Shown here one piece after another: positions 2,457 to 44,694 of a stretch of DNA of 64,000 nucleotides. Under the pieces are notes generated by a model. That model made no database searches. It was not told where the DNA came from and saw only the letters and a list, made by a program, of their open reading frames with translations. Source of the stretch: Bacillus niameyensis (lineage in GTDB: Bacteria; Bacillota; Bacilli; Bacillales; Bacillaceae_C); the NCBI RefSeq assembly GCF_001375535.1, contig NZ_LN831197.1, forward strand, positions 3,879,586 through 3,943,585, written 5' to 3'. Every line of letters begins with the position of its first letter. Position 1 is the first letter of the stretch. Position numbers and translations under genes: made by a program.

Positions 2457-2545
2457 GGAAGCTATGATCATAATGTAAATAGATTCCAATTATAGTATAA
2501 TATGCCTAATGATATGATTCTGGCTATGATTTGAGGGGGAGCGCC

Positions 2546-3442
2546 ATGGGAATCTTCCGTATGGTTGGTAAAGGAATTGGGACAGCAGGTGGTACGTTAA
2601 TTGGCGGTTCCGTGAAAATAGCCGGGAAAGCAGTTGGCTCCCAATGGAAGGGTGCTGGTGATTGGATAGAGCAAGTTGGAGATGGAGTTCGCACAGCATC
2701 CAAAGTTTCTTTTGATAATGCAGGCCAATTTGTTGATGGTGCGCTCCAAGGAACGTATGGCCTTTTAAAAAAAGATGCGCACTCCAAACAAAAGGGATTA
2801 GAAGATATAAAGGATTCTGTTGAACGAACAGTGAAAGGAATAGGCTCTACAGTCAGTTATACAGTAAACAATGCGGGCCGCACTTGCCAAGGAATAGCCC
2901 AAGGTGATAAGGCTAAAATGACAGAGGGCTTAAAAAATGTTGGAAAAGTAGTAGCCGTGTCGAGCATCGCGATTGGTATTCTCGATTTATTGGACGGTGC
3001 AGACGGAGTTTCAGCTGAAGAAATTGACACACGTAATGCTGAATTAAATGGACTCACACATCCTGATACAGGAGTAGAATTCATAGAAAAAACAGTAACA
3101 CTTCCTGATTCCAGTTTAGTCGAAGGAACATTTCCAGTTTTTGATTCGGGTTTTGAGGTAACTTTGCCTCAGGATGATTATATAGCAACTGACAGTGTTC
3201 ATTTTACATATGCTAATCATGCTCTCTTTGACCAAATTCAGGAAACCCCAAGACTTGCCGGTGAGTTAGGATTAACAGAGGGAGAGGTTCAGGCACTTCA
3301 AACAGGACAAACTCCTGAAGGTTATACATGGCATCATCATGAGGAGCCAGGGAATCTTCAATTAGTTGATGAAGAAACCCATGCAAAGACAGGACACACA
3401 GGTGGACGGTCTTTATGGGCGGGTGGCACGGAAAGTCGCTAA
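2546..3442 (+). CDS. WHH-type HNH nuclease domain protein (polymorphic-toxin-like)
   Basis: 298 residues. The C-terminal ~80 residues carry the signature of the WHH/colicin-DNase-like HNH family: an ANHALFDQI helix, then GYTWHHHEEPG, LQLV, and a final HAKTGHTGG block supplying the predicted metal ligands and catalytic His. The first ~150 residues are Gly/Ala/Lys-rich repeats of the GKGIGTAGG type with one hydrophobic stretch (VAVSSIAIGILDLLDGA), recalling amphipathic or membrane-active regions. No signal peptide, LXG or WXG domain is visible. The ATG at 2546 is chosen for the GAGGGGGA just upstream. It is 30 bases before the YjfB-like gene, and no immunity gene was recognised. The family is clear; the biological role is not. 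Confidence 0.7.
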   Translation: MGIFRMVGKGIGTAGGTLIGGSVKIAGKAVGSQWKGAGDWIEQVGDGVRTASKVSFDNAGQFVDGALQGTYGLLKKDAHSKQKGLEDIKDSVERTVKGIGSTVSYTVNNAGRTCQGIAQGDKAKMTEGLKNVGKVVAVSSIAIGILDLLDGADGVSAEEIDTRNAELNGLTHPDTGVEFIEKTVTLPDSSLVEGTFPVFDSGFEVTLPQDDYIATDSVHFTYANHALFDQIQETPRLAGELGLTEGEVQALQTGQTPEGYTWHHHEEPGNLQLVDEETHAKTGHTGGRSLWAGGTESR

Positions 3443-3472: not shown

Positions 3473-3673
3473 TTGGATATAGCCAATTTATCAATAGCAT
3501 TAAGTCATAATCAGCTTCAACAACAAGCATCACTCCTGGTGACGAAAAAAGCAATGGCAATCGCTACCCAACAAGGACAAGCCTTGACAGATTTATTGCA
3601 GTCCTCAAATGTTCAAGCGATTCAACATGCTGCTGAACCGCATTTAGGTGGGAATGTAGATTTGAAATTATAA
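3473..3673 (+). CDS. YjfB-like putative motility protein
   Basis: 66 residues with a TTG start preceded by AAAGGGTGA. The sequence MDIANLSIALSHNQLQQQAS with a later MAIATQQGQALTDLL helix matches the small YjfB motility-protein family of Bacillaceae, which is associated with sigma-D regulons; its molecular role is not known. It is probably co-transcribed with the nuclease gene upstream and ends at the terminator at 3701. It is not an obvious immunity protein. Confidence 0.65.
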   Translation: MDIANLSIALSHNQLQQQASLLVTKKAMAIATQQGQALTDLLQSSNVQAIQHAAEPHLGGNVDLKL

Positions 3674-3700
3674 TTAAAATTCTAAGAAGAAATTTATAGA

Positions 3701-3745
3701 AGCAACTTCTTGAATCGCTTGTGCGGTTGGAAGTTGCTTTTTTTT
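3701..3745 (+). terminator. Rho-independent terminator
   Basis: AGCAACTTC at 3701-3709 pairs with GAAGTTGCT at 3730-3738, followed by a run of T. It closes the nuclease-YjfB transcript. Confidence 0.85.
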
Positions 3746-4448: not shown

Positions 4449-4784
4449 TTGACCATAACAGGGCTTTCTCGATGTGAAGTATTGTTATCACAATTCCAGT
4501 TAGAAGACTTGCCTGCTGAACAGGATACGAAAGAATCGTTGAGAAGAATATTCTTATTCATATTCAATAATACAGATATTTACTATCTGGCATTCATACG
4601 TGAAGAGACATTAATTCAATATTTAAAAATACATCATGCTCAACAATTTGAATACATATCATTTGTCCAGGCTGTTAGAGATGTAAAATATTTCTTAAGA
4701 TTTCTGAAGAATAATAAAAAAATAAATTATGAGTTAGAGGTTGATTTATCCTTACAAAATTCTAAACTGTGGATTAATTTATAG
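4449..4784 (+). CDS. Unknown 111-residue protein, first copy of a chemoreceptor-linked family
   Basis: I do not recognise the family. It is a soluble-looking, mainly helical protein rich in aromatic residues (DIYYLAF, FVQAVRDVKYFLRFLKN) ending in a strand-like LWINL. It aligns without gaps to the 111-residue protein at 13689-14024, with roughly half the residues identical by hand count. Both copies lie directly upstream of a Cache chemoreceptor, so a partner or adaptor role for that receptor is possible. The start is TTG, with TAGGAG about 10 bases upstream. Confidence 0.75.
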   Translation: MTITGLSRCEVLLSQFQLEDLPAEQDTKESLRRIFLFIFNNTDIYYLAFIREETLIQYLKIHHAQQFEYISFVQAVRDVKYFLRFLKNNKKINYELEVDLSLQNSKLWINL

Positions 4785-4843
4785 TAAGTGTTTATGACAT
4801 ATTTTGTGATCCAGCAATTTAAATAAAAAAGTGGGTGTGTTAT

Positions 4844-6598
4844 ATGAAATTATTTCATTTTCTGTCAAAAACAATTCGAACAAAATTGATAGTTGTTTCT
4901 TTTCTACTTTTAAGTATACCGCTAATTGTTGTAGGCGTTTTAGCCTTTCAAAAAAGCAGTAACAGTTTAGATCGTTTAGGTGTTACGAATTTAAAAAACA
5001 GTGTAGAGATGACGATATCATTGATTGAATCTTTAAATAAGGAGGTCGAAAAAGGGAATCTTACCTTGGAGGAAGCGCAAGAGGAAGTAAAAGTTGCTAT
5101 ATTAGGTGTAAAAGCAACCGATGGGACACGCCCAATAAACCCACTTTTAGATTTAGGGAAAAATGGCTATATCTTTATTTTAGACCAAGAAGGGTATCAA
5201 GTTGCACATCCAAATCTCGAAGGAAATAAATTTTGGGACGTTGAAGATTCAAATGGAGTTAAGTTTGTTCAAGAGTTTATTAAAGTTGGTAATGCTGGCG
5301 GAGGCATTTCCTACTACGAATGGCCACTCCCGGATGATGAGAATCGGATTGAACAAAAAGTTACCTATTCGAAAGCAGATCCTTATTGGGGCTGGACTGT
5401 CAATGCCAGTACTTACATGATGGATTTTAATCAGCCAGCAAAAGAAATATTAAACTTGGTTATACTAGTGATCGCTATGACATTACTAATTGGCCTTTTT
5501 ATTATTTGGATGTTTTCGAATAGTATTGCTAAACCTCTTATCAAAGTAACAAAGCGCATGGATGTTCTTTCAAGCGGTGATTTGGCCCAAGAGCAACTTG
5601 TAATAAAAACAAAGGATGAAATTGGGGAACTTGCTCAATCCATGAATCAGCTGCAAACTCGTTTAAAAGCAATGGTTCTCAATATTTCTGATGCTTCAGA
5701 AACAATTGCTAGTCAGAGTGAGGAATTTACTCAATCAGCGAATGAAGTGAATGAAGGTGGACAACAAATCGCGGCAACGATGCAAGAACTATCATCCGCT
5801 GCCGAAACTCAAGCCGATAGTGCTACAACACTGAATGAACTAATGGAAGAGTTCAATATAAAAATTAGGGAAGCTTATCAACATGGGGAAGTTGTTGAGA
5901 GTTCATCTAATGAAGTTTTGTCAATGGCGGCAGAAGGACGTACCCTTATGAACCGATCTGTAGTTCAAATGGAAAATATTCATGAAAAAGTAAGCCAAGC
6001 AGTAGATAATGTCAAAGGCTTAAATGAAGAAACGCAGAAAATCTCAAAACTTGTTCAAGTGATCCAAGAAATTTCAGCGCAAACCAATTTATTATCCTTA
6101 AATGCAGCAATCGAAGCTGCAAGAGCAGGTGAACATGGTAAAGGGTTTGCAGTTGTTGCCTCTGAAGTTCGAAAGTTGGCAGAGCAAGTATCAGATTCTG
6201 TAGGGGAGATTACGGAGATTGTTGGACATATCCTCGAAGATTCTAATAAAGCGGTTCATTCATTGCAGTCTAGTTATGAGGAAGTAGAAGTTGGGTCAGA
6301 TCAAATTAAACAAACTGGTTTTACGTTCGGGAATATTAATGAGTCTGTGTCAGAAATGGTTCGGAAAATACAACAGATATCTACTAACCTGAAAGATTTG
6401 TCTCAAAATGGTGGAGAAATGTCCAAGGCGATTGAAGAAGTGGCAGCTGTGGCAGAAGAGGCGGCCGCAGGAGTTGAACAGACAGCTGCATCCGCGCAAC
6501 AATCCAGCAGTTCCATGGAGGAAATTGCGAGCGGAGCAGAAGAACTTGCTACTCTTGCGGAAAAATTAAACGCACAAGTTAGGCAATTCAAGTATTGA
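4844..6598 (+). CDS. Cache-domain methyl-accepting chemotaxis protein, copy 1
   Basis: 584 residues. An N-terminal helix (about 10-32) leads to an extracellular single-Cache-like domain ([13 protein letters not shown], then [17 protein letters not shown]). A second helix near 205-225, a HAMP linker ([14 protein letters not shown]) and a full MCP signalling domain with tip [20 protein letters not shown] follow. It lacks a C-terminal CheR/CheB pentapeptide. The ATG at 4844 is chosen because the paralogue at 14058 begins with the same MKLF; GTGGGTG is a modest ribosome binding site. Paired with the unknown small gene upstream. The ligand is unknown; this Cache type often binds small organic acids. 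Confidence 0.92.
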
Positions 6599-6922
6599 TA
6601 ATAACCAATTTGGAAGATTCATTATAAGTTTAAAAGAGAACACTAGTAAAATCGTATCAAGCGGTTACAATTTCAAAATTCGATCTTAAGTTGTAGGGTT
6701 TTTCCTGATAGTGAATTATACCGAATTTTGTCATAATAAGAGATATGATAATCGACTATATAGGATTTGTTCGTGATCTTCATAGGAGAAAAGAACGGGG
6801 TTTAAATACCTAAAAGTGCTTGTAAACTCCTGTCTAAAGTGAAATTTAGCTAAAGGCAGGAGGACATTTTGAAATTAAAATAATTGGCAGTTTCGAGATA
6901 AAGGGTGGCAGGAGGTGTATAT
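6599..6922 (+). other. Intergenic leader of the diguanylate cyclase gene
   Basis: 324 bases with no gene seen. A nested inverted repeat (CTCCTG at 6827-6832 with CAGGAG at 6857-6862, and CTAAA with TTTAG inside) lies about 60 bases before the start and may be a terminator or a regulatory hairpin. A GGGTTTTTCC motif at about 6699-6708 is the complement of the GGAAAAACCC motif found near other genes in this region. Confidence 0.35.
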
Positions 6923-8422
6923 GTGAAGACTCGTTTTGGGTTAAAATTGTTTATTTTAATGATTGCATTTGCGATAGTCATTTCTTTTACAATCGTAACA
7001 ATTGACTATTTAAGGCTTAGAGAACAGGCGATTGATAACAATCAGTTTCAGATACAGAAAATAGAAGATACAGTTGAATATTCATTAAAAACAATCGACA
7101 AAGCTTATTTCTTTTTTGATAATGAAACAGCTGTAAAAATGGAAGAGAACACACAATATATTTTAGAGCAATATAAAAAAAATCCTAATTTTGATAAGTG
7201 GGATTTTCACAAATTACAACAATTCCTTGGAATGGATATTTATATCATTAATGATAAAAACGTAATTACGCATAGCAATTTTGAAGAAGATATCGGCATG
7301 GATTTTTCATTATGCTGTTCAAAGCTTGTTTCAGTCTTAAATGAAAGAAGAAGCACTGGGAGTTTTTATCATGATGGGATGGATATTGAGCAGAAAACAG
7401 GCTCGATAAAAAAATACAGTTATATGGCTACACATGATAAACAATACTTGGTTGAACTTGGATATTCACTTGAAAGAGGAACAATATTTAATGAGTTTAA
7501 CTTTCTGCATGTTAATGAGGAACTCGTTCGAAAATATCCAGCTGTAAATGAAATAAACGTATTGAACATCGGAGGCTATTCGTTAGGAACTCCTGTAGCA
7601 GAAAAAAACCTAACAAAGGCAAGAAGAGAAGCATTTGAAAAAACGCTTCAAGATAAACAGACAACAGAAGTAAACGGCGTATGGAAGAATGAAAAAGCTA
7701 TTTATCGTTATGTTCATTTTGTTTCAGAATTTGACGAAGGAACTACGAAAAATAAAGTAATAGAAATTATTTATAATGAGAAGGAATTACAAGCAGTCCT
7801 TAACGATAACAAAAAAGCTTATTATTTACAATTAATAATTATTTTTGCCGTTACTACCTTAATTTCATTCATTATTTCTAGATGGGTCTCCAAACCTATG
7901 CATCTAGCTTTTCATGATAGTTTGACAGGTGTTAAAAATAGGACGGCTTTTGATGAATTTTTAGCTTCAAAATTACCAGCTAATCAAACCACAGCTTTAA
8001 TGATGATAGATCTTGATAATTTTAAAATGGTTAACGACTATTTAGGGCATGATGAAGGCGATAATTTACTGAGATGCGTGGCGGAATGCATTTGTGAGAC
8101 TGTTAGGAACAAGGGTACAGTGTATAGATATGGCGGAGATGAATTTATCGTGGTTTTACATTCGATTTCAGAGACAGAAGCAGAAAAAACAGCCATGACT
8201 TTGATCACTGAGATTGAAAATGTCATTCATCGAAAAAGGGAACTAACTGGATTACGGGTTTCGGCTAGTATTGGTATTTCTCTTTCTAAAGAAAATAATC
8301 ATGATGCCAAAATGCTATATAAAAGAGCAGATATGGCTTTATATGCTTCTAAAGAAAAAGGGAAAAATCAATACCATTTCTATAGCGGTAACAAGCTAAA
8401 GGAGGTTTCTAATAATGGATAG
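6923..8422 (+). CDS. Membrane diguanylate cyclase (GGDEF)
   Basis: 499 residues: an N-terminal helix, an extracellular Cache-like region to about residue 300, a second helix (LQLIIIFAVTTLISFIIS), then a GGDEF domain. The active-site GGDEF is intact at residues 404-408 (YGGDEFIVVL), with the metal-binding DLDNFK motif upstream. The allosteric I-site position that usually reads RxxD is RNKG, so product inhibition is probably lost. It should make c-di-GMP from two GTP at the membrane. The GTG at 6923 is chosen because AGGAGGTG lies 5 bases upstream. Its stop overlaps the start of the Sda-like gene, so the two are translationally coupled. Confidence 0.9.
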   Translation: MKTRFGLKLFILMIAFAIVISFTIVTIDYLRLREQAIDNNQFQIQKIEDTVEYSLKTIDKAYFFFDNETAVKMEENTQYILEQYKKNPNFDKWDFHKLQQFLGMDIYIINDKNVITHSNFEEDIGMDFSLCCSKLVSVLNERRSTGSFYHDGMDIEQKTGSIKKYSYMATHDKQYLVELGYSLERGTIFNEFNFLHVNEELVRKYPAVNEINVLNIGGYSLGTPVAEKNLTKARREAFEKTLQDKQTTEVNGVWKNEKAIYRYVHFVSEFDEGTTKNKVIEIIYNEKELQAVLNDNKKAYYLQLIIIFAVTTLISFIISRWVSKPMHLAFHDSLTGVKNRTAFDEFLASKLPANQTTALMMIDLDNFKMVNDYLGHDEGDNLLRCVAECICETVRNKGTVYRYGGDEFIVVLHSISETEAEKTAMTLITEIENVIHRKRELTGLRVSASIGISLSKENNHDAKMLYKRADMALYASKEKGKNQYHFYSGNKLKEVSNNG

Positions 8423-8558
8423 GTTATCAAATCAATCGTTAGTAGAGACATACCTGAAGGCTAAGCGGTTAGGTTTAAGTGAATCATTTATTCAACTGCT
8501 TTTGGAAGAAATGAACAAAAGGAATCTTAAAGATGAAGAAATGAGCTTAACGTGCTAA
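8415..8558 (+). CDS. sda: Sda-like sporulation histidine kinase inhibitor
   Basis: A 47-residue peptide beginning MDRLSNQSLVETYLKAKRL, with the ATG overlapping the end of the cyclase gene and AAGGAGG about 8 bases upstream. It aligns through its helical hairpin with B. subtilis Sda, including the Leu21 and Phe25 positions that contact the kinase. Sda blocks autophosphorylation of the sporulation kinase KinA. Here it lies between a c-di-GMP synthase and a c-di-GMP phosphodiesterase, so it may act on a phosphorelay kinase or on another kinase such as the one at 10879. The family call is good; the target is inference. Confidence 0.8.
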   Translation: MDRLSNQSLVETYLKAKRLGLSESFIQLLLEEMNKRNLKDEEMSLTC

Positions 8559-8583
8559 AGCCCTTCAGAAAAGAGGAAATGGA

Positions 8584-9963
8584 ATGAATACGAATGATCA
8601 ATGTACCCAGAATGACTTGGCTGAAATAATCAGCATGATCTATTCTGGTGCAGCACTCAACAAAGTATTAGAATTTATTACAAAAACCATTGAAAGATCT
8701 TTTTATCCTATTCAGGTGCATGCATCTATCATGCTATATGATCCCATTAGGAAAAAGCTTGGAAGTATGATTGGGCCTTCTCTGTCGCAAAATTATATTA
8801 AGTCGATTGAACCGATGGATATTGGCCCTTATGAAGGATCATGTGGTACGGCTGCTTTTTTAAAAGTGCCAGTTATTATAGCTGACATCGATGAAGATCC
8901 TCTTTGGGATAAGTATCGTAATTTAGCGAATCAAAACGGTTATAGAGCTTGTTGGTCGACTCCAATCTTGTCATCGAAAAATGACTTAATGGGTACATTA
9001 GCATTGTATTTTAAAGAAGTTTATCACCCCCATACCGGGCTAATTCAAAAATTACAAGTATACGAGCATCTTACAGCGCTTGCTATTCAGCTTGCATTTA
9101 ATAAGGAAAAATGTTTCTCGAAAGCAGTACCTTCTACTCCAAGAAGTGAACGGCAGTTTACCACAGAAACCCAAAATGAAAATAGACAATGGAATAGAGA
9201 GTTGCAAGAAGCTTTGTTAAAAGAAGAGTTTAAAATTTATTATCAACCATCTTTTGATCTAAAACTAGGGTGCGTAGGCTTGGAGGCTTTAATCCGTTGG
9301 AATCATCCTAATTTAGGAATCTTAGCTCCTAATCGTTTTTTACACATAGCTGAGGAAACGGATTTTATATTAGAGCTAGAAAAATGGGTGTTAACCAAAG
9401 CTATTAAGGATGTGCAAAGTTTTCAAAATCATGATTTGAAAAATATGACATTATCTGTCAATATTTCCGCAAAGCAATTAGAAAATCCAAATTTCCCTGA
9501 AAGAGTACTTCAAATTCTCCAATATTCACTTTTCAACCCTCAGAACCTTATTTTGGAAATTACAGAACGATTTCTTATTAACCTTGAAAATATTGAGACC
9601 GTTCGAAAACTGAGAGAGTTGGGAATTAGAATTTCAATTGATGATTTTGGAACTTCGTATTCTTCTCTTCAGTATTTAAAGGATTTGCCAGTAGATGAAC
9701 TAAAAATTGACCGAAGTTTTATTGATAATATGGAAATGGATTTAAATAAGCAAAAGATTGTAGAAATGATCATTGAGCTTGGGCACCAACTTAATTTGAA
9801 AATAGTGGGTGAAGGTATAGAAACAAAAAAGCAATTTCAATTGTTACAGGAAATGCATTGTGATAAGGTTCAAGGATTCTTATTTAGTAAGCCATTACCA
9901 CTTTCAAAATTCAAAAAAGGAAATCTTCAACAAATAAAAGAACTTGTTACACATCATTTTTAA
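8584..9963 (+). CDS. GAF-EAL c-di-GMP phosphodiesterase
   Basis: 459 residues, no membrane helix. An N-terminal GAF domain (about 5-175, with GPYEGSCGTAAF and RACWSTPILSS) is followed by an EAL domain from about 205. Catalytic signatures are intact: EALIRW near residue 234, SVNISAKQ, LEITER, DDFGTSYSS, KIDRSF, EGIET and QGFLFSKP. It should hydrolyse c-di-GMP to pGpG under control of a signal bound by GAF. The ATG at 8584 follows AGAGGAAATGG. It probably shares an operon with the cyclase and the Sda-like peptide, giving opposing activities in one transcript. Confidence 0.92.
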   Translation: MNTNDQCTQNDLAEIISMIYSGAALNKVLEFITKTIERSFYPIQVHASIMLYDPIRKKLGSMIGPSLSQNYIKSIEPMDIGPYEGSCGTAAFLKVPVIIADIDEDPLWDKYRNLANQNGYRACWSTPILSSKNDLMGTLALYFKEVYHPHTGLIQKLQVYEHLTALAIQLAFNKEKCFSKAVPSTPRSERQFTTETQNENRQWNRELQEALLKEEFKIYYQPSFDLKLGCVGLEALIRWNHPNLGILAPNRFLHIAEETDFILELEKWVLTKAIKDVQSFQNHDLKNMTLSVNISAKQLENPNFPERVLQILQYSLFNPQNLILEITERFLINLENIETVRKLRELGIRISIDDFGTSYSSLQYLKDLPVDELKIDRSFIDNMEMDLNKQKIVEMIIELGHQLNLKIVGEGIETKKQFQLLQEMHCDKVQGFLFSKPLPLSKFKKGNLQQIKELVTHHF

Positions 9964-10106
9964 ATAACAAAGGATAAAAATCGATGCACGAATATGGTCA
10001 GACATATATAATAATAAATTCCAGTATGTAGAGCAGTTTTAATGATCATCATGTTCTGTATGGGGATACAAAATATAGTGGGAATTGCGACTTAGGAGGG
10101 AGAAAT

Positions 10107-10754
10107 ATGATTTCTATTCTACTAGCAGATGATCATTCTATAGTTCGATCGGGAATAAAACTTTTAATAGATAGCCAGACTGATATGAAAGTAAATTATG
10201 AGGCGGAAAACGGGGAAGAAGCTGTTTTAATAGCGTTAGAAAAGAATCCTGATATTGTCATTATGGATTTAAATATGCCGAAAATAAATGGACTTGTGGC
10301 AACAAGGCAAATAAAGGAAACGAAAAGTGATATAAAAATCATAGTATTAACTATGCATGATGACAGAGAATATATCTTTCGTGTTTTGCAAGCGGGTGCA
10401 TCAAGTTATTTATTAAAAAGTAATCACGATAATGATTTGATAGAGGCAATTAGAACGGTTCATCAGGGAGGCGCCTACTTATATCCCGAAGCTACAAAAC
10501 ATTTACTTGAAGATTACATAAGAAAGTCAAATGAGGAGATGAAGAATCTTCAAATATTGACAGGTCGTGAACAGGCAGTTTTATCCTATTTAGCTAAGGG
10601 ATATACAAACCGAGAAATTTCTGAACAACTATTTCTGTCCATAAAAACAATTGAATCACATCGTTCTAAAATTATGGAAAAATTAGATTTGAAATCACGT
10701 CCTGATTTGGTTAAATACGCTATAAAGAATGGTCTTCTCGACTTTGTTGATTAA
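10107..10754 (+). CDS. NarL/FixJ family response regulator
   Basis: 215 residues: a receiver domain with acidic pocket Asp8/Asp9 and phosphoacceptor Asp54 (VIMDLNMP), the conserved Lys in SSYLLKS, then a LuxR-type HTH (LTGREQAVLSYLAKGYTNREIS). A perfect TAGGAGGG precedes the ATG. The histidine kinase 124 bases downstream is the likely partner. Target genes are unknown; the neighbouring DoxX, chemoreceptor and globin genes are candidates. Confidence 0.92.
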   Translation: MISILLADDHSIVRSGIKLLIDSQTDMKVNYEAENGEEAVLIALEKNPDIVIMDLNMPKINGLVATRQIKETKSDIKIIVLTMHDDREYIFRVLQAGASSYLLKSNHDNDLIEAIRTVHQGGAYLYPEATKHLLEDYIRKSNEEMKNLQILTGREQAVLSYLAKGYTNREISEQLFLSIKTIESHRSKIMEKLDLKSRPDLVKYAIKNGLLDFVD

Positions 10755-10878
10755 GGTTAGGTCATCTATATTCGTTGATGGTCTGCCTTTTTCATGTAAG
10801 GGGCTCCATGCCGGTTAATACACATTAAGTTGGTTTTGTTCATTTATCGTTTGTTGGAGAGCAGAATGGGGGAATTAA

Positions 10879-12702
10879 ATGAAACTATTTGAACCGGTTG
10901 TTGCTTTCATAAACCGTTTTACTTACATTCAGAAGTTTAACCTAATCGGGACAATAGTCGGAATTCCTATTATTATAATGAGTCTAATGCTGGTTCATAC
11001 GATAAACAAGGAGATTACAATTATTGAGGTACGGAAAAAAGGAGCAAATTACAACGCTTCATTAAAAGAACTGTTAAGGGATGTGCAGATTCATCGTGGC
11101 TTATCCATTCGTTATTTAAGTGGAGACACATCAGTAAAAGCCGCTTTGGCTGAAAAGCAATTATCTATATCTAAAGAACTTAAAACAATAAATGAGTATG
11201 ATGAGGCGCTAAACATAAACCAAACAATGGAATTGATTCAAGACCAATGGGAGGAGGTAAATTCGCGGATCGGAAGGATCCAAGTACATGAAACAACATC
11301 TACCCATAATGAGCTCATTGTGTTGATTACTGATCTAATGGTAACAAACGCTGAAAACTCCGGTTTATACCAATCAAAAAGTAATGGGACTTATTATATG
11401 ATTGAACATGTAACGAAGACACTCCCTCAATTTACAGATGACTTGGGACGAATTCGGGGCGAAGCGATGAATGTTCTTGTGAAAAAAGAAATCTCACAAG
11501 AGCAAAGGGATCAGTACATCACCCTATCGGCTTCTGTTGAACAATCCCTAAAGGAAATTGAATACGGAATTAATATAATATTAGCGGAAAAGCCATTATT
11601 GAGAAATAGCTTTAAGGATGTGAGTCAAGCTGTCCTGATAGATACGGGGAATTTCCTACTTAGTGCTAAACAGAATTTGCACCAAACACCAGAGTTTACT
11701 AGTGATCCGGAAGAGTTTTTTCAAGCGGCTACATCAATGATTGATGCAGGCTTTCATTTATATGATATTGAAACAAATGAGCTAGAGAAAATAATGATCG
11801 AGCAGATGAACGAGTTAAAGAAGAAAAGGCTGTTGATGATTATACTTTCTGTTTTATTTGCAAGTCTAACACTATATTTTTTTATCGTCTTTTACTTGTC
11901 CATGCATAGAACGACTGAGGAAGCTAAAATGGCTGGATATTTTTTCACTTACAAATATTTGTTTTTTCCACAGCTTAAACAAATAGCTGATAGCAAGGAA
12001 AGAGTAGAGTTAAAATATGAAGAAACTGAGCAGAGACTCTATGAGGTTGAAAAGAAAATGTCTCAACAAGTTTTTCAAGCTCACGAAGATGAAAGAAAGC
12101 GTGTATCTAGAGAATTGCATGATGGAATAGGTCAAACAATCTATAGTATTATCGTCCTTTTAAATTTGATAGAATTAGAGAATTTAGATGATTGGAGAAC
12201 AGATAAAATTAAAAAGGCAAAAGCGATAGCAGCTAATGCGATGAAAGAAGTTAAGCAGATTGCTCGTTCCTTGCGCCCCAGCTCATTGGATGATTTGGGT
12301 TTTGTCCCTGCTTTGAAATCATTTATTGAGGAATTCGAAAAAACACATGGAATTTCAGTAATACATGATTTGCCCAGTGATCAAAACAGGTTTAATCCCG
12401 ACATCGAGACTGTATTGTATCGGATTTGTCAGGAATCATTAACAAATGTAGCGAAATACTCTCAAGCAAATTCAGTCTATGTATGTCTCCACGATTACGA
12501 GCAGGAAATATTATTAACGGTTTATGATGACGGACAGGGATTCTATGTGGACAAATCTGTACAAGACAGCCAGCGAAAGGGAATCGGATTATTTAGTATG
12601 AAGGAGCGTGCAGAAGGATTAGAGGGTTCATTTCAAATCAGTTCAAAATTAAATCAAGGGACAACTATCAAGGTGCGCATTCCGAAGAATCAATCAAAAT
12701 AG
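10879..12702 (+). CDS. Sensor histidine kinase with NIT-like extracellular domain (HisKA_3 type)
   Basis: 607 residues. An N-terminal helix (about 20-45) is followed by a long helical extracellular domain to about 310 containing RDVQIHRGLSIRYLSGD, a pattern seen in nitrate/nitrite-sensing-like (NIT) helical bundles. A second helix sits at about 316-340. The cytoplasmic part has a coiled linker, a HisKA_3 dimerisation helix with phosphoacceptor His414 (DERKRVSRELHDGIGQ) and an HATPase domain (NVAKYSQA, DDGQGF, GIGLFSMKERAE). This is the NarX/DegS class and pairs with the NarL-type regulator upstream. A nitrogen-oxide or redox ligand is possible but unproven. Confidence 0.88.
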   Translation: MKLFEPVVAFINRFTYIQKFNLIGTIVGIPIIIMSLMLVHTINKEITIIEVRKKGANYNASLKELLRDVQIHRGLSIRYLSGDTSVKAALAEKQLSISKELKTINEYDEALNINQTMELIQDQWEEVNSRIGRIQVHETTSTHNELIVLITDLMVTNAENSGLYQSKSNGTYYMIEHVTKTLPQFTDDLGRIRGEAMNVLVKKEISQEQRDQYITLSASVEQSLKEIEYGINIILAEKPLLRNSFKDVSQAVLIDTGNFLLSAKQNLHQTPEFTSDPEEFFQAATSMIDAGFHLYDIETNELEKIMIEQMNELKKKRLLMIILSVLFASLTLYFFIVFYLSMHRTTEEAKMAGYFFTYKYLFFPQLKQIADSKERVELKYEETEQRLYEVEKKMSQQVFQAHEDERKRVSRELHDGIGQTIYSIIVLLNLIELENLDDWRTDKIKKAKAIAANAMKEVKQIARSLRPSSLDDLGFVPALKSFIEEFEKTHGISVIHDLPSDQNRFNPDIETVLYRICQESLTNVAKYSQANSVYVCLHDYEQEILLTVYDDGQGFYVDKSVQDSQRKGIGLFSMKERAEGLEGSFQISSKLNQGTTIKVRIPKNQSK

Positions 12703-12853
12703 TATAGTCACTTTTAAAAAAATATGGTTTTTTTCGTTGGAAATGTGGGAAAAACCCTATAGATTTTAGCGATAAAAATCGGAGATAATGGGTAATGTCT
12801 TTATAGAAGATTAAATTTTTATTACATTACGCTTTTTAAAATGAGGTGATCCA

Positions 12854-13414
12854 GTGGTTGAAGTAAAACGTGGTCCTTTTGGACAAGAAGTAATAGTAGA
12901 GGAAAATCGATTTTCAAGATTGTTGTTTGTTAGTACTAGATTATCATGGCTTTGGTTGATTCTCCGTGTATATTTAGGTTACTCATGGCTAACATCGGGT
13001 CTAGGGAAAATTGGTGCAGATGCATGGACGGGAGCAAATGCTGGTGCTGCGATTAAAGGTTTCACTGGTGGAGCGGTAGCTAAAGCTGCAGACGGTGATG
13101 TATCGACATGGTATGCCTGGTTTTTGGAAAACGTAGTGATGCCAAATGCTGTCCCATTTTCTTACATGGTGGCATACGGTGAAGTACTAGTAGGCATTGG
13201 TCTAATTATCGGTTGTTTAACAGGAATTGCTGCCTTTTTCGGGGCATTGATGAATATCTCATTTTTGCTAGCGGGGACAGTCAGCTCTAATCCAGTGATG
13301 TTTATCATAGCCATCATATTAATTATGGCGTGGAAAGTTGCTGGTTGGTATGGTGTGGATCGTTGGGCACTCCCATTTTTAGGGACACCATGGAAGCCGA
13401 GAAGAGAAAATTAA
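12854..13414 (+). CDS. DoxX family membrane protein
   Basis: 186 residues with four hydrophobic segments, starting GTG after GAGGTGAT. The first helix with the G(Y)SWLTSGLGKIGADAW segment and the terminal FFGALMNISFLLAGTVSSNP are typical of DoxX/DoxD-like proteins, which in some organisms are part of thiosulfate:quinone oxidoreductase or associate with redox enzymes. It closely resembles the partial protein at the window start. It is followed by a strong terminator. Substrate unknown. Confidence 0.85.
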   Translation: MVEVKRGPFGQEVIVEENRFSRLLFVSTRLSWLWLILRVYLGYSWLTSGLGKIGADAWTGANAGAAIKGFTGGAVAKAADGDVSTWYAWFLENVVMPNAVPFSYMVAYGEVLVGIGLIIGCLTGIAAFFGALMNISFLLAGTVSSNPVMFIIAIILIMAWKVAGWYGVDRWALPFLGTPWKPRREN

Positions 13415-13429
13415 AAAGAATCTCTAATA

Positions 13430-13473
13430 AAAAAACTATGCTTATTGTTCGTAAAAATAAGCATAGTTTTTTT
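13430..13473 (+). terminator. Rho-independent terminator
   Basis: A 15-base arm ending ACTATGCTTA pairs with TAAGCATAGT and flanking A/T, followed by seven T. It ends the DoxX transcript. Confidence 0.9.
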
Positions 13474-13688
13474 ATGATTAAATATTTTACTTTAAGAGTG
13501 AACCCTGCTATCAAGATCACTTAGGGATTTTTATCCAATAGTCACCATTTGGATAAAGATCCCAATAAACAAATTACTAAATATAAATTATAATAGGAAA
13601 GTCCTTTACGTGCTTGAGTAGATAGGGGCTACACTCTGTATGAAAGGCAAATCACTTATATCATAAAGAGAAAGGAAAATGACTATAA

Positions 13689-14024
13689 ATGGCAGTTAAC
13701 GAGCTTCCGCGCTATGCCGTTTTGTACTCGCAGTTTCAAACTGATCATTTGCATCTTGATGACGATCAGAAAAAGTCTTTGGATAGACTGTTTTGTTTCC
13801 TATATGAACACTCAGATGTTTATTATTTAGCGTTCGTTCGTGAAACAATTTTAAGGGATTATTTAAAATATCATGCTTCAACTAGTTTTGAATCAATCTC
13901 TTTTTTACAAGCGATAAAGGATATTAAAATTTTTCTATGTTTTATTAGAAATACAAAAGAGATTAATCGCGAATTACAAATTGATTTTAGTATTAAAAAT
14001 ATTTATATGTGGATCGAATTATAA
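13689..14024 (+). CDS. Unknown 111-residue protein, second copy of the chemoreceptor-linked family
   Basis: Gap-free paralogue of the protein at 4449-4784, same length, about half identical. Shared positions include YSQF/LSQF near the start, DxYYLAFxRE, the FESISFLQAIKDIKIFL helix and the WIEL terminus. Function unknown. ATG start with GAAAGG upstream. It is 33 bases before a Cache chemoreceptor, the same arrangement as the first copy, which argues that the two products work together. Confidence 0.78.
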   Translation: MAVNELPRYAVLYSQFQTDHLHLDDDQKKSLDRLFCFLYEHSDVYYLAFVRETILRDYLKYHASTSFESISFLQAIKDIKIFLCFIRNTKEINRELQIDFSIKNIYMWIEL

Positions 14025-14057
14025 CAGTTGCTCAATATTCTGGAGAAGGTGTAATCA

Positions 14058-15809
14058 TTGAAATTATTTAATTTTTTCTCTTCATCTATAAAAGTAAAAT
14101 TAATTTCCATATCATTTCTTTTGTTATCAATTCCTCTTATAATAACGGGAATTATGACATATAAAAGTAGTTCGAAAAGCTTAGATGAACTAGGTGCAAC
14201 AAATTTAAAAAATAGTGTGGAAATGACGATCTCCTTCATCGATTCCCTAAACAAGGAAGTTGAAAAAGGAACTCTAACCTTGGAAGAAGCTCAAGAAAAA
14301 GTAAAGGTAGCAGTTATTGGAGAAAAGAAGGCGGATGGTAAAAGAGAGATTAATCCGAACCTTAATTTAGGTGAAAATGGATATGTTTTTATTTTAGATC
14401 CAAATGGGATTCAAGTTGCAGACCCGTATGCAGAAGGGGAAAATTTATGGGACTTGAAAGATTTGAGCGGTGAGAAAGTTGTCCAAAAAATGATTGAAAC
14501 GGGCAATGATGGTGGTGGATACACATATTACGATTGGTATCTTCCGGATAGTAAAGAAACTGATAAAAAGATCACTTATTCAAAAACAGATCCCAATTGG
14601 GGCTGGACTGTTAATGGAAGTACATATATGACGGACTTCAATCAACCAGCCACACATCTACTACAACTAGTGCTATTGATCATCGGTATTACATTGCTAG
14701 CAGGAACATTCATTGTTTGGATTTTTGCCAATAGTATTGCTAAACCAGTTAATAAAGTATCAAAACAAATGGGCTATTTAGCAAATGGTGATTTAACACA
14801 TGATCCCCTCGAAATTAAGTCTCAAGATGAAATCGGAAATTTGGCAAGAGCGATGAATGAGATGCAAAGCCAATTAAAGGAAATTATCTATAGTGTTTCT
14901 GTAGCAACTGAGACGATTACAAGTCAGAGTGAAGAGTTTTCTCAATCAGCCAACGAGGTAAAAGAGGGTGGCGAACAAATAGCAGGAACAATGCAGGAAT
15001 TAGCGACTGCTGCCGAAATGCAAGCCGATAGTGCTACAACGCTGAACGAAAAAATGGATGAATTAAATGGCCGGATTTTTGAAGCCAATCAGCATGGAAA
15101 ATCCGTAGAAATCGCTTCTGCCAGTGTGTTGAAAATGGCTGAAGATGGAAGCGGACTAATGGATAAGTCGGTCGACCAGATGGAAAACATTCATCATAAA
15201 GTGAATGTCGCTGTAAAAAATGTTAGGGACTTAAACGAAGAGACGAGAAAAATTTCTAAGCTCGTTAGCGTGATTGAAGATATTGCAGCACAAACGAATT
15301 TATTATCGTTAAATGCAGCTATTGAGGCAGCACGTGCAGGGGAGCATGGAAAGGGATTTGCTGTTGTTGCATCGGAAGTAAGGAAGTTGGCCGAACAAGT
15401 AACAAGTTCTGTCGGTGAAATAACAACGATCGTAAACCATATTTTACAAAATGCTGATAGAACAGTTGATTCATTGGAATCCAGTTATGTAGAAGTAGAA
15501 AATGGAACAAAGCAAATAGAAACTACAGGACGTACCTTTGGAGAAATCACCCAGTCCGTTTCAGATATGGTTCAAAAAATCCAAGGGATTTCCGAAAACC
15601 TGAAGGAATTGACAAACAAAAGCGGCGAAATGTCCAAAGCAATTGAGGACGTAGCAGCAGTGTCAGAAGAAGCAGCAGCAGGAGTTGAACAAACAGCCGC
15701 ATCTGCAGAGCAATCGAGCAGTTCTATGGAGGAAATTGCTAATGGTGCTGTAGAACTTGCAACTTTAGCGGAGAGTTTGAACAATCAAGTAAGGAAATTT
15801 AGACTGTAG
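14058..15809 (+). CDS. Cache-domain methyl-accepting chemotaxis protein, copy 2
   Basis: 583 residues, the same architecture as the receptor at 4844: N-terminal helix, single-Cache-like domain ([30 protein letters not shown]), second helix, HAMP and MCP signalling domain with tip [20 protein letters not shown]. Signalling and HAMP regions are nearly identical to copy 1, while the Cache domain differs more, so ligand specificity may have diverged. The TTG start is supported by GGAGAAGGTG and by the shared MKLF beginning. No CheR-tethering pentapeptide. Confidence 0.92.
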
Positions 15810-16994: not shown

Positions 16995-17160
16995 TTGTCT
17001 AGCTCCAGCGCCCAGCGCCTATCAAACTTTCCGCTTCTTCCTACGATAAGTCAACATCGATTCGCCATTGGCTCACCGTGTTTCCTTTAGCTCAGGCCAA
17101 CAGGACGTTGGTCAGAACGGCGTTGCACCAAGACGGCGCGTCTTTAGCCGTTCATCCTTA
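16995..17160. repeat. Dispersed palindromic repeat, copy A
   Basis: It begins TTGTCTAGCTCCAGCGCCCA and ends TTCATCCTTA. Near-identical sequence recurs at 22775-22940 and, shortened, at 22985-23085. It lies between the Nudix gene and the secreted-protein gene and carries no gene. A family of small non-autonomous repeats is the likely identity. Confidence 0.85.
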
Positions 17161-17246
17161 CTTGAAAATTCGTTAATCTCTCTATAATCCTCATAATTTT
17201 AGTCAAGTTGGTAAAAAATAGACTAACATCTTCCGGGAGTGATTTT

Positions 17247-22744: not shown

Positions 22745-23139
22745 TTCGTCAAAAAGGCGCTTCCGCTTTTCTTATTGTCTAGCTCCAGCGCCCAGCGACT
22801 AACAAACTTTCCGCTTCTTCCTACGATAAGTCAACATCGATTCGCCATTGGCTCATCGTGTTTCCTTTATCTCGGGCCAACAGGATGTTGGTCAGAACGG
22901 AGTTGCGCCAGAACGGCGCGCCTTTAGCCGTTCATCCTTATTAGAAAGTTTGTCCGTCGCTAAACGGTCGCTTCCGCTTTTCTTATTGTCTAGCTCCAGC
23001 GCCCAGCGACTAACAAACTTTCCGCTTCTTCCTACGATAAGTCAACATCGATTCGCCATCGGCTCATCGTGTTTCCTTTATCTCGTCAGAAGCTAGAAAA
23101 GTTTGTCCGTCGCTAAACGGTCGCTTCCGCTTTTCTTAT
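22745..23139. repeat. Two tandem copies of the dispersed palindromic repeat (B and C)
   Basis: Copy B (22775-22940) is near identical to copy A at 16995. Copy C (22985-23085) is a shorter version. Each ends in a CCGTCGCTAAACGGTCGCTT block. The left arm AGCGACTAACAAACTTTC and right arm GAAAGTTTGTCCGTCGCT are near-perfect reverse complements, so each unit can fold into a large hairpin. The array ends about 20 bases before the GGDEF-EAL start codon and must therefore overlap or replace its promoter region. Confidence 0.88.
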
Positions 23140-44578: not shown

Positions 44579-44694
44579 CTCTTATCGAGAGCGGCGGAGG
44601 GATTAGGCCCTGCGATGCCCAGCAACCTTCAGAGGGTTCTATCTGAAAAGGTGCTAAATCCTACAGATCTTAATGGTCTGAGAGATAAGGGGAG
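44579..44694 (+). promoter_or_regulatory. SAM-I (S-box) riboswitch
   Basis: The conserved core is readable: CTTATCGAGAGCGGCGGAGG, then GATGCCCAGCAACC, AAAGGTGCTAAATCC and the closing GAGAGATAAG that pairs with the start. It binds S-adenosylmethionine and switches off the downstream metY gene through the terminator at 44706. Confidence 0.95.

Follow-up and report, generated by a model that had tools for sequence, protein, structure and literature searches.

SwrA is a swarming and flagellar co-activator of Bacillus subtilis. It is degraded by LonA with SmiA as adaptor, and the swrA gene carries a poly-A phase-variation tract. Tyrosine recombinases carry a catalytic domain with an R-K-H-R-H pentad and a Tyr nucleophile. 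In the excerpted text of a 2013 paper, SwrA is described as having no known DNA-binding domain and as giving no DNA shift alone; with DegU~P on Pfla/che, however, it causes a supershift and belongs to the resulting complex (PMC3874003). How SwrA activates flagellar genes has stayed open because neither a known DNA-binding domain nor DNA binding by SwrA alone was seen in that text.

Two genes for small proteins that we compare here with SwrA lie in the window (the whole stretch of 64,000 nucleotides that was analysed), and a search of the window's own genome finds the small gene in these two copies. The features of the locus are as follows.

3473..3673, + strand, YjfB_motility protein (PF14070; Pfam on the window's protein only), upstream of copy 1
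3699..3745, + strand, terminator-like hairpin 3′ of yjfB (−22.9 kcal/mol, z −5.3)
4449..4784, + strand, SwrA-like small protein, copy 1 (111 aa, TTG start, AGGAG upstream; AlphaFold model m2d0a5ab767e9)
4835..6598, + strand, chemoreceptor 1, sCache_2-HAMP-MCPsignal (Pfam), 50 bases 3′ of copy 1 on the same strand; ATG at 4844 is the more likely start than 4835
6905..8422, + strand, diguanylate cyclase (GGDEF; Pfam)
8415..8558, + strand, Sda-like peptide (Pfam Sda, E 1.9e-14)
8584..9963, + strand, GAF-EAL phosphodiesterase (Pfam GAF and EAL)
10107..10754, + strand, NarL/LuxR-type response regulator, receiver-LuxR (Pfam)
10879..12702, + strand, HisKA_3 sensor kinase (Pfam; NIT match of 21.3 bits, below the cut-off of 24.9)
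12854..13414, + strand, DoxX-family protein (Pfam)
13430..13472, + strand, terminator-like hairpin 3′ of doxX, between the middle block and copy 2 (−17.7 kcal/mol, z −7.8)
13566..13594, + strand, sigma-A-like promoter match 5′ of copy 2 (TAAACA-17-TATAAT, 10/12, consensus match only)
13689..14024, + strand, SwrA-like small protein, copy 2 (111 aa, ATG start; AlphaFold model m681ca86a298d)
14058..15809, + strand, chemoreceptor 2, sCache_2-HAMP-MCPsignal (Pfam), 33 bases 3′ of copy 2 on the same strand

The two small proteins align by BLASTP with no gaps (54/111 residues identical, 78/111 similar), and the two receptors are identical at 390 of 583 positions (67%). The first-pass annotation had described the small proteins as gap-free and about half identical, each directly preceding a receptor of matching architecture, and both descriptions hold. 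The regions upstream of the two copies give no useful alignment, and Rfam detects no riboswitch or other RNA 5′ of either copy. Sigma-A-like matches in the region of 13566..13594 are rarer than in shuffled sequence (34 versus a mean of 44). With a sigma-D consensus, no site with two or fewer mismatches lies directly 5′ of either copy; a lone site with three mismatches is found at 13664. A check for a poly-A tract gave longest A/T runs of 4-8 in the small genes, including seven A in copy 1.

The cyclase, Sda-like peptide, phosphodiesterase, regulator/kinase pair and DoxX reported between the copies are all recognized by Pfam, with the sub-cut-off NIT match in the kinase. The first-pass annotation had gone further and read them as a plausible motility-to-sessility or redox decision module. 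This reading is not supported, and the middle block plus the two copies is rejected as one module, because close counterparts of its genes are absent within about 6.5 kb of the 20 other copies of the small gene (domain-level matches of 25-29% only) and because the doxX hairpin splits the block from copy 2. The neighbour comparison used reading frames of at least 60 aa, and the Sda peptide is too short to enter it. The doxX hairpin lies outside the two sites of the consensus scan; its loop exceeds the limit of that scan.

The comparison with SwrA was made with profiles. Profile A2 holds 22 homologues of the small protein and no SwrA, and profile A3 holds 12 of 20 SwrA proteins. Profiles A4-A8 are subsets of the 22, picked for conservation, to suit the input rule of the folding tool or for thinning of near-copies, and the rows of A3 were picked likewise; A7 adds SwrA rows and is identical to an alignment of 26 rows (16 of the 22 family members and 10 of the 12 SwrA proteins). 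Aligned by hhalign, A2 and A3 match at full length over 104 columns (probability 97, E 1.2e-10). Rerun in two directions the probabilities are 97 and 95.5, and 19 unrelated ortholog-cluster profiles reach at most 2.7. A search of 397 genomes with A2 recovers at least 10 of the 20 places that score above the Pfam SwrA cut-off, nearly at full length (E 4.6e-8 to 2.7e-3). A tree puts SwrA and the family on one side of a 100/99 branch, with six Xer rows opposite.

In the Pfam search, none of the 22 members matches PF17423 at E ≤ 10, and the cut-off of 25 bits is not reached; the window's own genome has two sub-cut-off matches, both elsewhere than the small genes. Genomes matching PF17423 number 22, none of them from the window's GTDB family. 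Among the 12 listed genomes with clear members none also carries an above-cut-off SwrA (19 genomes have one, apparently in the same sample of 397). Thus, as judged from sequence profiles, the family shares full-length common descent with SwrA and is a distant relative rather than a Pfam member.

Residues D78, D99 and W108 are invariant in the 26 rows, and T42, K80 and S101 are nearly so. D99 and W108, together with S101 (conserved in 90% or more of the rows), belong to a C-terminal D-F-S-L-x-N-x-x-L-W region, which is lost in one member outside this alignment (L042). According to the excerpted text of another paper, the SwrA degron is the last 17 residues in B. subtilis (PMC9204741); the C-terminal motif shared by the family and SwrA falls in this stretch.

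The same profiles lead to a second group of proteins. Searching 398 genomes with A7 gives at least 25 places outside the family at E ≤ 1e-3, and all 20 of those that were read are recombinase-type: 16 have recombinase boxes, three match Pfam Phage_integrase and one (L156) matches an integrase SAM-like model only. Such matches have to be treated with care. In the script database A2 alone hits L091 (E 1.4e-4) and L090 (E 1.7e-4), both judged to be chance, and single-profile matches of such strength may therefore be spurious. Because the script database also holds loci fetched by these same profiles, only an independent Xer set counts as evidence. That set consists of 29 proteins collected with PF02899 (the short locus L119 was left out of 30). 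At E ≤ 0.01, A7 matches 23 of the 29, A2 alone 10 and A3 alone one, and column-shuffled profiles match in 0/50. In the five best matches the profile alignment spans Xer residues ~27-119. In the profile alignment by hhalign, K80 stands opposite the Arg in the S-I-R helix of Xer. Comparison of A2+A3 with Xer by hhalign gives 86 and 90.5, with controls for these profiles at or below 1.3. Searches of PDB sequences with A2 or A3 give weak matches only (best E 0.11 and 0.76).

The predicted models of the small proteins have pLDDT values of 78.6 (copy 1) and 74.9 (copy 2). Tyrosine recombinases take places 1-21 among the best 50 structural matches of the copy 1 model, and places 1, 2 and 4 among the best 50 for copy 2; they include lambda Int, archaeal Xer, XerH, Cre, IntI and Tn1549 Int. 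Foldseek alone gave no match at E ≤ 0.001 for either model. We did not find a catalytic domain in the small proteins: 111 aa is too short, and Phage_integrase is not among the families listed. On the profile evidence, the family and SwrA share homology with the core-binding domain at the N-terminus of tyrosine recombinases, the helical part that clamps DNA, and the predicted models agree with its fold. We found nothing on a link between SwrA and tyrosine recombinases in the literature searched.

The small gene is present in 16 of the 34 genomes of the window's GTDB family and is thus conserved rather than a chance reading frame. The family extends over Lederbergia, Siminovitchia, related genera and Cytobacillus plasmids. 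All 34 genomes have flagellin, which makes its co-occurrence with the small gene uninformative. Copy 1 is up to 53% identical to copies from other genomes and 49% identical to copy 2. The duplication is not a fresh one, since copy 1 is equally near to copies elsewhere and the tree does not pair the two as sisters; a recent tandem duplication of the cassette is therefore unsupported. Profile searches of genome contigs found no relatives in the first scan and seven loci in the second. A check for phage or viral origin found no relatives in phage records or viral contigs, and comparison with a viral fold library was uninformative. Several profile matches were set aside: weak A1 matches in G164 and G166, and one at a second place in G025, were put down to chance, L090, L091 and L097-L099 were judged chance from their proteins, and L095 and L096 were discarded for internal stops.

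Kinship with SwrA and with the core-binding domain suggests that the family consists of transcription co-regulators. By analogy with SwrA, we think it probable that the small proteins are transcription co-activators that act with a phosphorylated DegU-type regulator, as stand-alone recombinase core-binding domains. At a promoter, the small protein would dock on the phosphorylated response regulator and give it an extra DNA contact and added affinity, and motility genes would be switched on; we infer the DNA contact, the docking on DegU, which promoters are targeted and in which direction they are regulated. Where the gene stands beside a chemoreceptor gene or directly 3′ of a gene for a c-di-GMP enzyme, the protein probably controls the local motility operon or is co-expressed with it, and it probably does not bind the receptor protein itself. 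The window's genome encodes DegS ~88 kb before the window, and the next gene downstream, for a NarL-type response regulator, likely encodes DegU, judged by position; this regulator is distinct from the regulator at 10107..10754.

The neighbours of the small gene allow other readings. The protein could be coupled mainly to cyclase and phosphodiesterase genes and relay the c-di-GMP state to motility transcription, with the chemoreceptor linkage secondary. We regard this as unlikely. An EAL-cluster gene does lie directly upstream of the small gene in six of 20 loci (Pfam was run on two of these six), overlapping it by eight bases in L045, and on a Cytobacillus solani plasmid the small gene has a GGDEF gene 157 bases upstream. 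However, the EAL neighbour is absent in the other 14 loci, the cyclase and phosphodiesterase of the window adjoin neither copy (they lie beyond receptor 1), and the fold gives no hint of nucleotide binding.

The first-pass annotation had taken the family to be unrecognised and a potential new receptor partner. Such a protein would bind the neighbouring chemoreceptor at its cytoplasmic part, or the CheA/CheW arrays, and tune the signalling of that receptor. A same-strand MCP-type gene, upstream or downstream, lies within 1 kb of 15 of 22 copies (both copies in the window and 13 of the 20 loci from relatives), and a 23rd copy adjoins an interrupted MCP gene. The 20 genomes have only 4-19 MCP matches each, and linkage by position alone has a small chance. 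The family is thus not found mostly away from chemoreceptors, the pattern that had been named as counting against a partnership. The linkage part of the proposed conserved pairing stands, but strict pairing does not. For seven of the 22 copies there is no MCP gene in the surrounding 1 kb, and the four plasmid copies read have none among the annotation listed, which is incomplete. The genus has 10 full-length matches to receptor 2, and five of them lack a small gene nearby: G004 has two of these, while the window's genome, G005 and G006 have one apiece, with the G005 match on a short contig where ~0.9 kb upstream is visible. The adjoining receptors are also of different kinds (sCache_2, protoglobin/HemAT type, dCache_1, and one in which only HAMP and MCPsignal are recognised), so no single receptor surface is evident. 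Profiles and models place the family with SwrA, a transcription co-activator, and with a DNA-clamp domain, and we consider a receptor partner quite unlikely.

It is likewise improbable that the core-binding domain binds a DNA site by itself, free of DegU, whether it be a classic repressor or activator or an accessory or decoy of XerC/XerD: DNA-binding domains do have this fold and the nearly invariant K80 aligns with the Xer Arg, but the core-binding domain of recombinases works jointly with the catalytic domain and the two members in the window are not basic. The finding that SwrA by itself does not shift DNA also counts against it, in the excerpted text (PMC3874003).

For the co-activators that act with a phosphorylated regulator, there is perhaps an even chance of the following origin. 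SwrA and the related family would be recombinase core-binding domains that lack the catalytic half and have been captured to serve as co-activators that clamp DNA beside the phosphorylated regulator, and the family would since have spread into local regulators of chemoreceptor and c-di-GMP operons. If so, the mechanism of SwrA becomes directly testable, and the family would be a bacterial case of the DNA-binding half of an enzyme turned transcription factor. SwrA, termed "narrowly conserved" in the excerpted text (PMC9204741), would become part of a wider family.

The auxiliary motility protein YjfB (PF14070) is a neighbour of the family and not a relative. Its sequence is unrelated, and the neighbourhood is common to the window and four other loci of the genus (L035, L038, L040 and L041, where a homologue by BLAST cluster is directly 5′ of the small gene). 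The family resembles the core-binding domain (Phage_int_SAM such as PF02899; XerC/XerD, lambda Int, Cre, IntI) in profile and structural matches. It differs from tyrosine recombinases in having no catalytic or arm-binding domain, and from their core-binding domain in its extra conserved C-terminal motif and frequent position beside motility genes. The family differs from SwrA (PF17423) in that SwrA proteins are 14-23% identical to copy 2, the Pfam SwrA model misses the family, its genes often adjoin chemoreceptor or EAL genes, and the window's genome has two copies. The likeness to SwrA lies in the similar length (111 versus 117 aa) and full-length profile match, in the invariant D78, the nearly invariant K80 and the C-terminal motif ending in W, and in the occurrence of the family in flagellated Bacillaceae, with DegS in the window's genome.

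The two 111-residue reading frames that the first-pass annotation had described, each ahead of a matching receptor, are present and align without gaps, with 54/111 residues identical:

4449-4784, + strand: copy 1 reading frame, 111 residues
13689-14024, + strand: copy 2 reading frame, 111 residues

A same-strand sCache_2-HAMP-MCPsignal receptor begins 50 bases after copy 1 and 33 bases after copy 2, and the two receptors (receptors 1 and 2) share 67% identity. Pfam and NCBIfam gave no above-chance family for either small protein; a single sub-cut-off Pfam match had an E-value of 0.2. Between the copies lies a middle block of GGDEF, Sda, GAF-EAL, response regulator, HisKA_3 kinase and DoxX genes. 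Their earlier names agree with Pfam, except that the NIT sensor of the kinase falls under the Pfam cut-off. The Sda-like sporulation-checkpoint peptide (8415-8558, +) shares 8 bases with the end of the GGDEF gene. Two hairpins, at 3699-3745 and 13430-13472, are far more stable than shuffled sequences. Thus, transcription of yjfB and of the middle block probably ends ahead of copy 1 and copy 2, respectively. The product of the gene two upstream of copy 1 (2531-3442, +) carries at its C-terminus a colicin-DNase/WHH nuclease domain (PF12639, E 1.5e-27) and is probably a polymorphic toxin. Elsewhere the window carries the Bacillaceae-1 small RNA twice, at a spacing of 5.8 kb (17097-17163 and 22877-22943, both −), and a SAM riboswitch (S box; 44579-44691, +, 91 bits).

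A search of the window's own genome returned two copies of the small gene. A profile of both copies matched 22/198 related genomes, G164 and G166 among these by chance. With the merged profile, carriers amounted to 16/34 genomes of the window's GTDB family. These include 11/16 genomes of the window's genus, a group containing Lederbergia citrea and L. wuyishanensis, and 5/6 of Siminovitchia, the other main carrier group. Another family of the same order (loci L044-L046 and L048) and six Cytobacillus plasmids also carry members, more distant ones; the phage records searched gave no match to the small family. At L042 (9461-9811, −) the conserved C-terminal motif is replaced beyond DLSL, which suggests a frameshift.

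The pairing of small gene and receptor proposed earlier is frequent, but not strict. Within 1 kb, a same-strand MCP-type gene (by membership of a BLAST cluster of MCP proteins) is present at 13/20 relatives' loci and at both window copies (15/22 in all). Its side varies, with upstream cases at L029 (a 2-base gap), L040, L047 and L048 and downstream ones at other loci, and the receptors concerned are of several kinds. The seven loci lacking one within 1 kb are L035, L039, L041, L043, L044, L045 and L046, the last having only an upstream MCP fragment of 95 residues. A 23rd copy, the second in genome G130, adjoins an MCP gene interrupted by stops (L175:4535-6283, −) that looks like a pseudogene. 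MCP matches in the 20 genomes number 189 in about 87 Mb. The binomial chance of the linkage, estimated with the highest per-genome chance and an earlier, lower count of 14/23 copies, is about 2e-18 when shared ancestry is ignored; it is 3e-8 when the copies are collapsed to 6/11 arrangements by our own grouping. On the other side, 5/10 full-length matches to receptor 2 in the 16 genomes of the genus have no small gene nearby (two in G004, one each in the window's genome, G005 and G006). Of the four plasmid copies read, three have an NlpC/P60-type gene next to them and no annotated MCP.

Other neighbours recur as well. An EAL-cluster gene is directly upstream of the small gene at 6/20 loci, overlapping it by 8 bases at L045; a GGDEF gene is upstream on a Cytobacillus solani plasmid; and a YjfB_motility homologue precedes copy 1 and the small gene at four loci. 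Compared in frames of 60 aa or more, the middle block, read earlier as a plausible decision module, has nothing closely matching it beside the other copies, and with a hairpin ahead of copy 2 that reading is not supported. The Siminovitchia loci (L100:8151-10902, L030-L034) hold an EAL gene, a SwrA-like gene, a HemAT-type protoglobin receptor and more receptors in a row; the HemAT type was assigned by Pfam on L100. Relatives L038, L040, L041 and L035 have adjacent globin and DUF2269 genes followed, with variations, by MCP-like, yjfB, small and NUDIX genes. In the window, unlike these relatives, the globin (16007) and NUDIX (16468) genes lie past copy 2, which would fit the insertion or rearrangement of a block at about 4.8-15.8 kb.

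The small family had been proposed as a new receptor partner; judged by sequence, its nearest relative is SwrA, already known, and it falls outside SwrA's Pfam definition (PF17423), which matched 0/22 members. A profile of these 22 members (A2) compared with one of SwrA (A3, from 12/20 SwrA proteins from whole genomes) gave a probability of 97 (E 1.2e-10, 104 columns), against 2.7 at most for 19 profiles of unrelated ortholog clusters drawn from the same neighbourhoods. A blind A2 search of 397 genomes (E<=0.01) recovered, nearly full length, at least 10 of the 20 places above the PF17423 cut-off. D78, D99 and W108 never vary across 26 rows drawn from both groups, and T42, K80 and S101 are nearly invariant. 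A tree built with six Xer rows places the small family and SwrA together on one side of a branch with support of 100/99. The SwrA branch has support of 95/94 without its most divergent row and 79/49 with it; the small family forms no resolved clade, nor does the tree resolve the two window copies as a sister pair. A second SwrA-like gene of G364 (L073) is divergent, encodes 113 aa and has an unsure tree position; G364 also has a typical SwrA. Genomes with clear members (12) and with above-cut-off SwrA (19) do not overlap among the matches listed, in apparently the same sample. Thus, the two seem to stand in for each other across genera.

In one genome the A2 search also reached a XerD-like protein, matching its N-terminal domain at E 1.9e-6. 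Merging A2 and SwrA (A7, 26 rows) gave at least 36 places in 398 genomes at E<=1e-3; among the matches listed 11 are family or SwrA and 25 others. Twenty of the 25 were read: 16 have two or more recombinase boxes, three more match Pfam Phage_integrase, and for L156 the sole match is to an integrase SAM-like model. All 20 are thus of recombinase type, L156 by its SAM-like domain alone. In an independent set of 29 Xer proteins gathered through PF02899, A7 matched 23, A2 alone 10 and SwrA alone 1 at E<=0.01 (SwrA alone 15/29 at E<=1). The best A7 E-value was 5e-7 in a database of 4000, whereas 50 column-shuffled profiles gave 0 matches (best E 0.043). The five best Xer matches fall on the core-binding domain, at residues about 27-119. 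When combined A2 and A3 were compared with Xer, profile against profile, the scores were 86 and 90.5; the single profiles gave 21 (A2) and 14 (A3), and controls for the merged and Xer profiles at most 1.3. The literature searched, covering the accessible portions of papers including PMC12826050, PMC3874003, PMC9204741 and PMC8138268, with subscription papers and preprints outside its scope, held no statement of a SwrA-tyrosine recombinase kinship.

Homology of the small family to SwrA and to the core-binding domain is shown at the level of sequence, and its fold is predicted; for partner, DNA contact and targets we infer the following. A recombinase uses its core-binding domain as one of the two halves of a DNA clamp. 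In a SwrA-like protein this domain would form one clamp half, the response regulator supplying the other, and the window's proteins are probably local SwrA-like co-activators partnering DegU or a related regulator at their own receptor operon, possibly also at fla/che. In the window's genome DegS is encoded about 88 kb ahead of the window, and the NarL-type response regulator directly downstream of it is by position presumably DegU. A core-binding domain would explain SwrA's behaviour well. According to PMC3874003, SwrA turns DegU~P from repressor into activator at the fla/che promoter and is part of the DNA-bound complex, increasing its affinity, yet gives no DNA shift alone. The same paper, from 2013, says that SwrA contains no known DNA-binding domain, and SwrA has been termed narrowly conserved, with a poorly understood function (PMC9204741). 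The conserved C-terminal residues are common to the small family and SwrA, and in B. subtilis SwrA the C-terminal stretch is, as reported in PMC9204741, required for degradation by LonA with SmiA.
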